A stretch of DNA of 64,000 nt, taken from Actinomycetota bacterium (GTDB lineage: Bacteria; Actinomycetota; Geothermincolia; Geothermincolales; RBG-13-55-18). Shown piece after piece: positions 33,147 through 64,000 of the stretch (positions are counted from its first letter, which is position 1; every line of letters begins with the position of its first letter). Both the position numbers and the translations under genes were made by a program. The notes under the pieces are model-generated. The model had not been told where the DNA came from, searched no databases, and saw only the letters and a list, made by a program, of their open reading frames with translations. Where the stretch lies: assembly GCA_040757835.1 (NCBI GenBank), contig JBFLWJ010000011.1:39856-103855 (forward strand), in the 5' to 3' direction.

Positions 33147-33655
33147 TGTTACCCCCTTGGTAATCAGTATTGACTAACCGGTTCTTGCAGATAACGTAAC
33201 CTCATACATATTCTACAATAAAATACGCTATGATTTGAACCGCTATTTAGCTGGCAATATGAAATCAGCCACTAATAATGACCAAACTGGACTACCTACT
33301 AGCTGTAATTATGGATGCGTTTGATACTGCGGTTTCCTCCCTGTGGATGCTCCCGGAACGTGCAGGTGGCGTTCCCTGGCCTGCCTTTCGGTGGAAGCCC
33401 ACGGCGCCGTCGGGGAACGCGGAGCGGCGTGGCGGCCTGCCCCCTCTGATTGCGGTAGCGGATCCCGCTCGGGCCCGGCGATCATGCCGGGCAACGCCAG
33501 GTTATCCGAGAGCGGACCGCATGTGATCCGGTTTGGGCCGCGAGGACCGTCCGGAGGGGGCACCATCAGAATTAAGGATGTTCACGTTTATGCCCCATGG
33601 CGGCGGGAATAATGTGCAATTGAGGCAAGGGCGCCCGAGGAAGAAGGAGATAGGT
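33147..33655. other. Intergenic stretch with AT-rich core
   Basis: 509 bases without a supported gene. 33160-33330 is markedly AT-rich for this genome and probably carries the promoter of the minus-strand repeat protein. The right half is GC-rich, with no recognised element. Confidence 0.4.
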
Positions 33656-33946
33656 ATGTACGAGGAGCACTTGGAGATCGTGGAGGGTGAAGAAGGTGGG
33701 CACGAGCTGGTCCTCTTCGCTCTTTCCACCTGCGGCTGGTGCCGCAAGGCAAGGTCTTTCCTGGACGAGAACAAGCTGAAGTACCGCTACGTGTACGTCG
33801 ACCTCCTGGAGGGTGACGCCCAGAAGGAGGTGTTCGAGGAGGTCAAGACGCGCAACCCGCGCAAGACGTTCCCGACCCTTATCGTGGACGGCGAGGAAGT
33901 GATCGCGGGCTTCAACGAGGACAAGTACAAGGAGTCGCTTCTTTGA
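33656..33946 (+). CDS. Glutaredoxin-family protein
   Basis: 96 residues with the thioredoxin-fold active site STCGWCRKARSFL near residues 22-34 and the cis-proline segment KTFPTLIVDGEEVIAGFNED. The CGWC motif (both cysteines present) suggests a dithiol reductase or a low-redox-potential electron carrier. ATG 33656 follows AAGAAGGAGA; the longer frame from 33533 is not coding. Its stop overlaps the start of the ferredoxin-thioredoxin reductase gene by four bases, so it is the likely thioredoxin-like partner of that enzyme. Confidence 0.9.
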   Translation: MYEEHLEIVEGEEGGHELVLFALSTCGWCRKARSFLDENKLKYRYVYVDLLEGDAQKEVFEEVKTRNPRKTFPTLIVDGEEVIAGFNEDKYKESLL

Positions 33947-34581
33947 GTCCTGGGTACACGCCGGAGGTCCTGGCCCTCTACGAGCGCCTCAACGAGGACG
34001 CCGAGGCGGGAGGGTACCACCTGAACCCCGACCGCGACTTCGTGCTCACGCTGGCCGAGGGCCTCAACACCAACCAGGACAGGTACGGCTATATGCTCTG
34101 TCCGTGCCGCATGGGCGAGGGGGACCGGGAGGCGGACCTGGACATCATCTGCCCCTGCGACTACCGCGACGCCGACCTCGAGGAGTATGACCAGTGCTAC
34201 TGAGGCCTATACGTTACCCAGGAGGTCCTGGAAGGCAGGAAAGAGGTCGAGGGGCAGGTGCCGGAGAGAAGGCCCGAGCCCGAGGAACTGGAGAGGATGC
34301 GGTCCGAGAAGAAGACCGCCGCGGGCAAGGGCGGAGACGGTATGCCCGTATGGCGCTGCAAGGTCTGCGGCTACCTGGCCGCGCGGGACAGCGCTCCCAA
34401 GGTCTGTCCCATCTGCAAGGCGACCCAGGACCGCTTCGAACCCTTCCCCCTGCGGGCGGGACCGTCCCTGCCCGTATGGCGCTGCAGGGTCTGCGGCTAC
34501 CTGGCCGCGCGTGACAGTGCCCCCAAGGTCTGTCCCATCTGCAAGGCGGCCCAGGACCGCTTCGAACCCTTCCCGCTATAA
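33943..34581 (+). CDS. Ferredoxin-thioredoxin reductase catalytic subunit with UGA (probable Sec87) and two fused rubredoxin domains
   Basis: Read through one in-frame UGA (34201-34203) this gives 212 residues. Residues 1-92 are an FTR catalytic chain: CPC at 53-55, CPC at 70-72, then QCY-UGA-GLYVT where the family has C-x-C followed by a similar hydrophobic run. Six positions (53, 55, 70, 72, 85, 87) match the four cluster and two active-site cysteines of known FTR; UGA replaces the last, an active-site Cys. The same frame continues without interruption into two rubredoxin-like domains (CKVCGY...CPICK near 139-160, and a near copy 42 codons on). A SECIS-like hairpin follows the UGA. It starts at TTG 33943, overlapping the glutaredoxin stop. 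Alternatives: a truncated FTR plus a separate rubredoxin gene from GTG 34258, or a sequencing error. Confidence 0.8.
34201..34231 (+). promoter_or_regulatory. UGA codon and candidate bacterial SECIS in the FTR gene
   Basis: After the UGA come 14 bases, then CCAGG-AGGT-CCTGG (34218-34231). The apical loop starts 20 bases past the UGA and contains GGU, as in the E. coli fdhF SECIS loop. The spacing is identical to the hairpin behind the formate dehydrogenase UGA at 62404. The fold was made by eye; the 5-bp stem is short. Confidence 0.6.
34345..34578 (+). repeat. Tandem duplication of a rubredoxin domain (126-bp period)
   Basis: 34345-34452 and 34471-34578 are near-identical at the DNA level (about seven differences over 108 bases) and encode VWRCKVCGYLAARDSAPKVC-type domains. 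Few differences mean a recent duplication or ongoing homogenisation. Confidence 0.9.
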
Positions 34582-34598: not shown

Positions 34599-34750
34599 GG
34601 GGTCAGCCCCTGACATGCGACATAGAGCAAAGATCCGTAAAACCGCTCATGACGAAGATCGAACAGCCCACCTTTAACAGCAGGCACTTTATTAACGGCA
34701 GGCCTCCCTCTCTTCTCAGGCCTTTTTGTCACATGTCAGGGGCTGACCCC
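34599..34750. repeat. 152-bp element with perfect 19-bp terminal inverted repeats
   Basis: GGGGTCAGCCCCTGACATG at the left end and its exact complement CATGTCAGGGGCTGACCCC at the right. The inside is AT-richer than its surroundings and non-coding. A partial extra end, GGGGTCAGTCACGGAC, lies at 34583. It resembles a non-autonomous transposable element and ends one base before the stop of the gene at 34752. Confidence 0.8.
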
Positions 34751-61821: not shown

Positions 61822-64000
61822 ATGGAACTTTCGCGAAGAGGTTTCCTCAAGCTGTCGGGCGCCGGCATCGGCGTCGCGGCCCTCGCGCAACTCGGATTCT
61901 CCACCCCCGCCTTCGCCGCTGGCGAGGAGCTTCGCATCAGCGAGGCCAAAGAGAGCACCACGATATGCCCGTATTGCTCAATGGGTTGCTCCGCCATCGT
62001 CAGCGTGATGGACGGGAAGGTGGTGGGTCTCGAGGGTCTGCCCGACAGCCCCATCAACCGGGCTAGCCTTTGTTCCAAGGGCCAGTCCATCTACCAGGTC
62101 GCCAATAACGACAGGCGACTGCAGAAAGTCTGGTACCGTGCACCCGGCGGGACCGAGTGGGAGGACAAGACGTGGGAGGAGGCCATCCCGGCCATCGCCC
62201 GTCTCATCAAGGACACCCGGGACGCCACCTTCGTGGAGACGGAGGAGATCGACGTCAACGGTACCAAGAGCAAGGTCACGGTCAACCGCTGCGAAGGCAT
62301 CGCCCAACTTGGAGGGGCGGCCCTGGACAACGAGGAATGCTACCTCGCTATCAAGTTCGCCCGCGGCCTCGGCCTGGTGTACATAGAGCACCAGGCGCGA
62401 ATATGACACTCGGCCACAGTCGCCGGTCTCGGCGGCACGTATGGCCGGGGAGCCATGACCAACCATTGGGTCGACCTCAAGAACGCCGACGCCTTCATGA
62501 TCTGCGGCGCCAACCCCAGCGAGAACCATCCCTGCTCATGGAAGTGGCTGGAGAAAGCCAGGGAGGATCACGGCGCCAAGATTATCGTCGTCGACCCGCG
62601 TTTCACGCGTTCCGCCGCCAGGGCGGACGTTTTCGCCTTTATCCGGCCCGGCACGGATATCGCCTTCTTCGGGGCCCTGATCAATTACGCCATCGACAAG
62701 AACTATCTCAACTGGGAGTATATCCAGAACTACACCAACGCCCCCATCCTGGTGAACCCGGAATTCAAGGGCCCGGCGGAGCTTGACGGCCTCTTCAGCG
62801 GCTACAATGCCGAGACGAGGAAGTACGACACCAAGACCTGGTCGTACCAGACCGATGCGGCGGGGGAGCCCAAGCGCGTACAGCTCATACCCATCGCCGA
62901 GGACGCCTTCTACAAAGGGCGCGGCGTGCCCAACGGACCCAAGGACTCAAACGGCAACTTCATCCCCAACGATGACGCTGCCGTCGCTGGAAGCGTATGG
63001 GCCAAGCTCAAGCAGCACTACGCGCGCTACACCTATGAGGGTACGGACAGCATCGTCTCCAGGGTCTGTGGCATGACCCCCGAGAGCTTCAAGGCGGTCG
63101 CCGAGGCTTATGTGGGTACCACCCACAAGCGGGAGAAGACGGGCAACCTCATGTATGCCATGGGCTTGACTCAGTTCACCATAGGCACGGAGAAGATACG
63201 CACCTTCGCAATCCTCCAGAGCCTGCTGGGGAATACCGGCCTTCCGGGCGGGGGCATCAACGCCCTGCGCGGGGAGAGCAACGTGCAGGGGTCCACGGAC
63301 TACGGCCTTCTCTCCCATATCCTCACCGGTTACATGCCGGTCCCCAACTCCACCGACAACCCTGACCGCGTCAAGTACCTTGAGAAGACGACGCCGAAGG
63401 TCGGTATCTGGACCTGGCAACCCAGGTTCTTCAACAGCTACCTCATGGCCTATTACGGCCCCTATGCCAAGAAGAACGGCCTGGACAAGGCCTACGACCT
63501 CCACCCCAAGGTGAAAAAGGGCAAGAACTACACCCACATCGGCCTCTTCGAGGACATGTACGCGGGAGTGATCAAAGGCCTTATCGCCTGGGGCCAGAAC
63601 CCCGTGGTGGGAGGTCCCAACTCAAACCTGGAGGCCGCGGCCATGGACAAGCTGGACTGGTTCGTGGCGGCCGACCTGTGGGAGACGGAGTCCATGGACT
63701 TCTGGAGGCGTCCCGGCACCGATCCCAAGGACATCAAGACCGAGGTCTGGGTGCTCCCCGCGGCTTCCTCGGTTGAAAAGCCGGGTTCCGTATCCAACTC
63801 GGGCCGCCTGGCGCAGTACCGCTGGAAGGCGGTGGAGCCGCCGGGCGATGCCGAGCCTGATGCCTTTATGATCCACCAGATCATGAAGGCGGTGAAGGAA
63901 CTCTACGAAACCGAGGGCGGCAAGGGCAAGGAATCGGTGACCGAGCTCTTCTGGGCCTACGACGAGGACGAGCATGGGGAGCCCAACCTGGACCAGGTGA
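61822..64000 (+). CDS. fdnG: Selenocysteine formate dehydrogenase alpha subunit, Tat-exported (3' end outside window)
   Basis: Open from ATG 61822 to the window edge through one in-frame UGA at codon 195 (62404-62406); 726 full codons visible of about 1000 expected. The twin-arginine signal SRRGFLKLSGAG is followed by a hydrophobic run and AFA. The [4Fe-4S] motif is CPYCSMGCSAIVSVMDG...CSKG. QARI-UGA-HSATVAGLGG, then RGAMTNHWVDLKNAD, is the active-site Sec block of FDH-N/FDH-O, where Sec binds Mo or W beside the conserved His. KWLEKAREDHGAKIIVVDPR and GQNPVVGGPNSN are MGD-binding regions. It oxidises formate on the outer face of the membrane. GTG 61810 is an alternative start. tatA, tatC and fdhE lie directly upstream. 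Confidence 0.95.
62404..62436 (+). promoter_or_regulatory. Sec UGA codon and bacterial SECIS hairpin of formate dehydrogenase
   Basis: UGA at 62404-62406. Hairpin 62419-62436: arms GTCGCCG and CGGCGGC (7 pairs, one T-G) around loop GTCT, giving GGUCU at the tip as in E. coli fdhF. The loop starts 20 bases past the UGA. Confidence 0.8.

Follow-up and report, generated by a model that had tools for sequence, protein, structure and literature searches.

The ferredoxin:thioredoxin reductase (FTR) of plants and cyanobacteria works with a variable-chain partner and has thioredoxin as its substrate. In this family four cysteines hold the cluster, one cysteine attacks the substrate, and the residue equivalent to Cys87 contacts the cluster. 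Among related enzymes of solved structure, the ferredoxin-dependent disulfide reductase of Methanosarcina acetivorans (4tpu) carries a cysteine at the 87 position and one rubredoxin, and the glutaredoxin/ferredoxin disulfide reductase fusion of Desulfotalea psychrophila (7pwe), also a Cys form, joins both proteins in one chain, the 196 residues of which leave no room for a rubredoxin. FTR has been listed as a selenoprotein as well: two GOS marine sequences, one of them with two selenocysteines, were reported in 2008 (PMC2398784), and FTR with a CxU motif is included in selenoprotein tables from 2022 and 2026 (PMC9312934, PMC13188914). An earlier note on the DNA studied here, which did not count FTR among the commonly listed selenoprotein families though without claiming certainty, needs correction on this point. 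The word rubredoxin is absent from the main text of these three papers, and among the matches listed in the literature searched there was no selenoprotein FTR that is fused to rubredoxin or comes from the class Geothermincolia.

The gene described here lies in a stretch of 64,000 nucleotides (the window) from the genome of an Actinomycetota bacterium of this class (Table 1). It starts with TTG, is preceded by AAGGAG at 33929-33934 and, with its single TGA at codon 87 read as a residue, runs through 212 residues to a TAA stop. We consider it highly probable that it encodes an FTR-family protein with two rubredoxins in which the UGA at the active-site cysteine specifies selenocysteine (Sec).

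Table 1. Features of the reductase locus and of the selenocysteine machinery. Positions are those of the window unless a contig of the source genome is named.
Feature	Position	Strand	Basis
Glutaredoxin-like protein, LSTCGWC active site, 96 aa	33656..33946	+	Pfam, PDB relatives
FTR-type disulfide reductase plus tandem rubredoxins, 212 aa; residue 87 predicted to be Sec	33943..34581	+	
FTR catalytic domain, residues 17-101	33991..34245	+	Pfam FeThRed_B; alignment to 4tpu, 7pwe and plant-type FTR
In-frame TGA, predicted selenocysteine codon, residue 87	34201..34203	+	TGA/Cys in class genes
Candidate SECIS apical hairpin CCAGG-AGGU-CCUGG, within the coding sequence	34218..34231	+	Local folding energy
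Rubredoxin domain 1, residues 137-168	34351..34446	+	Pfam RUBY_RBDX
Rubredoxin domain 2, residues 179-210	34477..34572	+	Pfam; DNA 95% identical to domain 1
selD, carries its own TGA	Contig 5, 138355-139278		374.4 bits
selA	Contig 5, 140241-141611		600.4 bits
selB	Contig 5, 141706-143589		373.4 bits
tRNA-Sec, anticodon TCA	Contig 5, 143795-143886		76.2 bits

Translation and Pfam searches confirmed the FTR-rubredoxin frame with in-frame TGA that the earlier note had described, including its FTR motifs (CPC at residues 53-55, CPC at 70-72, Cys85 and the UGA at position 87), the GLYVT segment that follows and the in-phase run into two rubredoxins. The Pfam model of the FTR catalytic chain (PF02943) scored 77.8 bits against a cut-off of 22 over a match that spans position 87, a search of the source genome returned the same FTR match with one TGA inside, and the rubrerythrin-type rubredoxin model RUBY_RBDX matched the reductase in two stretches. 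The best sequence match among solved structures was 4tpu (E 2.4e-55, residues 8-168), followed by 7pwe, and these two were also nearest by structure model; the structure prediction, which was of middling confidence (pLDDT 77), served for the fold only. Plant and cyanobacterial FTRs were lower-ranking matches (1dj7, 2puk and 7bzk among others; Cys form, 21-26% identity in the model alignment). An FTR domain followed by rubredoxin in one chain is the architecture of 4tpu, but the redox centre of the latter is a Cys pair, the second residue of which is replaced by the TGA in the source gene. In five alignments to solved structures the TGA fell on the second cysteine of the CxC motif. Following plant and cyanobacterial FTR, we take Cys53, Cys70, Cys72 and Cys85 to be the cluster ligands and Cys55 and Sec87 to be the redox pair. 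Cys53, Cys55, Cys70, Cys72, Cys85 and position 87 were invariant among 26 aligned class proteins, with U counted as C. The predicted Sec at the redox-active cysteine is shared with the GOS sequences (PMC2398784) and with NCBIfam NF041072 (FtrB_double_U). Membership in the latter was rejected because the source protein, which has one Sec only, scored 58.4 bits, below the cut-off of 160.

The distribution of the TGA was followed through a sample of 32 genomes of the class, the named members of which include Candidatus Solincola and Candidatus Geothermincola. The FTR family was present in 27 of these genomes and not found in five. When each gene was read individually, codon 87 was TGA in 19 and TGC/TGT in eight, so that the comparison of Cys and UGA among homologues suggested in the earlier note yielded both forms at one position with the frame kept on either side. 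All 27 genes, TGA and Cys forms alike, continue into at least one rubredoxin. The class protein alignment, which comprised 26 of the 27 proteins (G079 was left out for an assembly gap), was used as the query for a scan of named relatives, and among the best 80 of 547, which represent close relatives only, TGA was observed in eight and Cys in 72. These eight consist of six class members already counted and two Chloroflexota (L107 and L177). TAA or TAG in place of the TGA was rejected as a further recoded form; in the three listed matches that contain one (G181, G277 and G443) it is an ordinary end stop after a Cys-form CxC. In a wider phylum sample the family was found in 60 of 397 genomes, 27 of which are those of the class; among the other 33 a TGA inside the match was seen in one (G396), which has two. 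A tree of 100 FTR domains, 27 from the class and 73 from named relatives, required seven changes of the Sec/Cys label, four of them forced by well-supported branches; the alignment behind it had few columns and its bootstrap values had not settled. Neither this tree nor the hairpin counts given below include seven named loci that match class genes already counted.

The earlier note had suggested looking for selA, selB, selC and selD in the rest of the genome, and all were present on contig 5, where selD, selA, selB and tRNA-Sec are clustered within 5.5 kb. Each of the 19 class genomes with the TGA form has selA and selB as well as a tRNA-Sec match of at least 75 bits. Searches for selA and selB found neither in four of the 32 class genomes (G030, G230, G263 and G322), one of which has no FTR match (G030) while the other three have the Cys form. 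The association between the TGA form and the presence of selA/selB gave a Fisher p of 0.019, with the qualification that related genomes are not independent, and the absence is not firm since G230, G263 and G322 are only 82 to 86% complete. Within one genus both traits differ together, G101 having TGA and the sel genes and G263 having Cys and none found. In another genus, one genome has TGA (G177) and two have Cys (G166 and G188) while the Sec genes are kept in all three, so Cys forms also occur beside intact machinery. The Chloroflexota TGA genome G398 had no SelB match at E <= 1e-60. The SelD of the source genome itself contains an in-frame TGA near its N-terminus (KSGUAAKVG; L181 586-588), as do 26 of the 28 class SelD matches over the cut-off.

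A hairpin follows the UGA, and its 4-base loop begins 20 bases past the A of this codon. As the earlier note had pointed out, the same offset recurs elsewhere in the window, where a formate dehydrogenase-like frame has a predicted 4-base loop (GUCU) after its TGA at 62404-62406. Folding energies of -7.5 or lower in the local folding window were obtained for all 19 class TGA genes vs three of the eight Cys genes (G230, G274 and G304; G230 is a genome in which selA/selB were not found), and with the named relatives included for 19 of 21 TGA vs 6 of 79 Cys genes. The 3' arm GTCCTGGA is present in 19/19 class TGA genes and in three of the eight Cys genes (G188, G263 and G274). Families f1 and f3 pair as CCAGG-AGGU-CCUGG, and in families f4 and f5 the 5' arm is one base off (UCC[A/G]GG-CGNGU-CCUGGA), which means that the pairing is kept through a different route. 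Taken singly, the hairpin is weak: about 8% to 13% of synonymous recodings of the source gene fold equally well, the upper figure (0.13) being that of the test with per-gene codon use, and in the other test the per-gene probability was 0.05-0.09 in 12 of the 13 own-family Sec genes (0.0165 in G294) and 0.0025-0.055 in the five Sec genes of families f4 and f5. The hairpin was accordingly rejected as proof on its own, the fold of the source gene by itself lying within synonymous chance. What exceeds chance is that the relatives retain both the TGA and the hairpin, the latter being kept in every class Sec gene. In the two Chloroflexota TGA genes (L107 and L177) no hairpin was found at this offset.

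If the TGA were a true stop, the gene would produce an 86-residue FTR piece without the last active-site cysteine, and the rubredoxins would form a separate gene. The frame does end at the TGA under translation table 11 (33943-34203) and an ORF with a GTG start at 34258 exists; this GTG, however, is the valine of QVPERRP where most aligned relatives have isoleucine, so a start at this site is not shared, and the FTR and 4tpu matches extend through position 87. The earlier note had named a rubredoxin with its own conserved start as an observation that would speak against the fusion, but there was no internal start common to all genes and the eight Cys relatives are each one continuous protein, for which reasons a separate rubredoxin gene was rejected. 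Sec and Cys genes alike keep the protein sequence that is encoded past the TGA. Pairwise comparison of 12 own-family TGA genes, from which G331 was left out for its contig end, counted 409/351/1515 differences at first, second and third codon positions over the 60 codons before the TGA, 245/119/562 over the 27 codons after it and 266/258/812 over the first rubredoxin. Third positions dominate on both sides of the TGA, which indicates that the DNA after it is under protein-level selection, and we regard a true stop as very improbable. The TGA might alternatively have arisen by mutation or assembly error in a Cys gene of the source genome, which is a draft of 35 contigs. The TGA recurs in three other genomes of the source genus and, overall, in 19 of the 27 class genomes that carry the gene, which argues against sequencing or assembly error, and six of the TGA genes were also found as named records from several accession series, making this origin extremely improbable.

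Decoding as an amino acid other than selenocysteine (tryptophan, glycine or near-cognate cysteine) would be in keeping with the weakness of the single-gene hairpin, Sec being a prediction here. Such decoding is nevertheless very unlikely, considering that the position aligns with the cysteine of Cys-form relatives, that the genome has a complete Sec gene set and that no TGA form occurs in the class genomes where selA/selB were not found. TGA is, moreover, the commonest stop of the window, terminating 19 of its 36 long coding frames (picked by length and GC3), on which count a global reassignment of UGA was rejected. The reading best supported by these comparisons is that of an FTR joined to two rubredoxins with selenocysteine in the place of Cys87.

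The glutaredoxin gene directly upstream ends in a TGA stop that shares bases with the TTG start codon of the reductase. The Pfam glutaredoxin model matched at 50.2 bits (cut-off 22.9; longer frame 33533-33943), and the relatives in the PDB were 3nzn and the N-terminal part of 7pwe (frame from 33653). A glutaredoxin gene whose end coincides with the reductase start or lies a few bases from it was found at 18 of the 19 TGA and five of the eight Cys loci of the class; in the position directly upstream none was found at one Sec and three Cys loci. The two proteins of the window match the two halves of the 7pwe fusion, differing from it in being encoded by separate overlapping genes, and the glutaredoxin is for this reason the predicted substrate of the reductase. 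The earlier note had likewise suggested this partner, a suggestion that gains support from the gene pair and the natural fusion. In G210 (L046) the Sec-type FTR has no ATG, GTG or TTG start in the range searched; translation could begin at a CTG that shares bases with the stop codon (TGA) of the glutaredoxin gene before it.

From the architecture only, we propose that the rubredoxins are the point of electron entry. The four cysteines of the CxxC/CxxC motifs of domain 1 (139, 142, 155 and 158) are invariant in 26 class proteins. Alternatively, the protein may be a selenoprotein in which the rubredoxins are a storage, docking or peroxide-related module rather than an electron path and in which a different redoxin acts as partner. 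The class alignment shows a variable linker between FTR and rubredoxin, the number of rubredoxins among class genes is one or two, and Sec-type FTRs of a Chloroflexota class lack rubredoxin, all of which would suit such a module. On the other hand, at least one rubredoxin is kept in 27/27 class genes and in the 80 named relatives (best 80 of 547; one recognized by sight), although these relatives were gathered partly with a rubredoxin pattern, and the placement of the glutaredoxin at 18 of the 19 Sec loci, together with its fusion to the reductase in 7pwe, speaks against another redoxin as partner. We regard this alternative as possible but rather doubtful.

With rubredoxin as electron entry and glutaredoxin as partner, the reaction might proceed as follows. 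SelB and tRNA-Sec(UCA) would decode the UGA with the aid of the hairpin, and in the resulting protein a selenenyl-sulfide between Cys55 and Sec87 would lie next to a [4Fe-4S] cluster with Cys53, Cys70, Cys72 and Cys85 as its ligands. Electrons would arrive singly from ferredoxin, perhaps via the rubredoxin domains, and the cluster would reduce the Se-S bond in two steps, between which the Sec87 selenolate would rest on the cluster. Cys55 would meanwhile attack the disulfide of the neighbouring glutaredoxin. A selenolate would be both a better leaving group and a better transient ligand.

Sec-type FTRs were observed outside the class as well. In Dehalococcoidia, the Chloroflexota class of L107, the FTR family was present in 191 of 393 genomes. 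Thirty loci were taken (L182-L211) and 24 of them read, among which 20 have the TGA at the corresponding position (YCHU[L/M]LFC) of an FTR that lacks rubredoxin and four have Cys; six further loci were read for TAG or two TGA. There are at least 20 TGA matches in Dehalococcoidia, with many more among the matches listed. Five two-TGA loci of this class (L213-L217) have the motif CPU...CIU, in which a TGA encodes each of the two redox positions, a double-Sec pattern as reported for one GOS sequence (PMC2398784). Judging by these 20 of 30 loci, Sec FTRs look common, apparently commoner than the literature examined says and in more than one architecture. Another rubredoxin-less FTR (L093, G396:C74:9500-12500) has two TGAs. 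The first of these to be noted occupies the CxU position, and the other replaces the initial residue of the first CPC (CUPC), with an extra Cys immediately ahead of it; the genome has a SelB match. The TGA in CUPC presumably sits at a cluster-ligand position and not at a redox cysteine.

Within the reach of our literature searches, a Sec form of the FTR branch that carries rubredoxin is new, as is its retention through a lineage, and the Sec/Cys exchanges and the doubled rubredoxin were likewise absent from the literature searched. We lean towards the broader view that this is a lineage-wide selenoenzyme, fed by tandem rubredoxins, in which the selenolate is a transient [4Fe-4S] ligand and the Se-S bond is reduced in one-electron steps, and that Sec FTRs are common. 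Selenium at the Cys87 equivalent would tune potential and rate and, as the atom touching the cluster, would offer a 77Se spectroscopic handle on an intermediate that is difficult to observe in the sulfur form. The close Sec and Cys orthologues would permit a test of the effect of selenium beside an iron-sulfur cluster in native proteins, and the repeated Sec/Cys exchanges, some as recent as between species of one genus, would represent a natural experiment on why Sec is kept. The locus and its relatives place the FTR selenoprotein family in a genomic lineage, give it a likely partner gene and supply a record of its evolution. A gene caller that halts at UGA shortens the reductase and loses its rubredoxins.

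The two rubredoxin copies of one gene, which form a 126-base repeat in the source gene, are more alike than the copies of different genomes. Within genomes, the DNA of the copies (34343-34574 and the corresponding region in 11 other genomes of the family) showed a mean identity of 0.985, and of 0.963 at third positions (11 genomes; G079 was left out of the mean), compared with 0.775 and 0.598 for first rubredoxin copies between genomes. This pattern suggests concerted evolution through gene conversion or repeated fresh duplication. Directly past the gene, at 34599-34750, there is an inverted pair of TGTCAGGGGCTGACCCC. Genome-wide, 98 copies of this sequence were counted with up to one mismatch (51 forward and 47 reverse; backward control 0), many of which face each other in pairs about 75 bases apart, as would befit a dispersed, REP-like element.

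Other frames with in-frame TGA were encountered in the course of the analysis. The frame with TGA at 62404-62406 (QARIUHSATVAGLGG), which we call formate dehydrogenase-like in keeping with the earlier note, has a stronger hairpin after the TGA and, judging by these features, is likely a second Sec gene of the window. At two loci (L051 and L013), a flavoprotein frame directly downstream of the FTR gene contains an in-frame TGA at SGUGMPY; the frame resembles CoA-disulfide reductase, and the TGA presumably occupies the place of the active-site cysteine.
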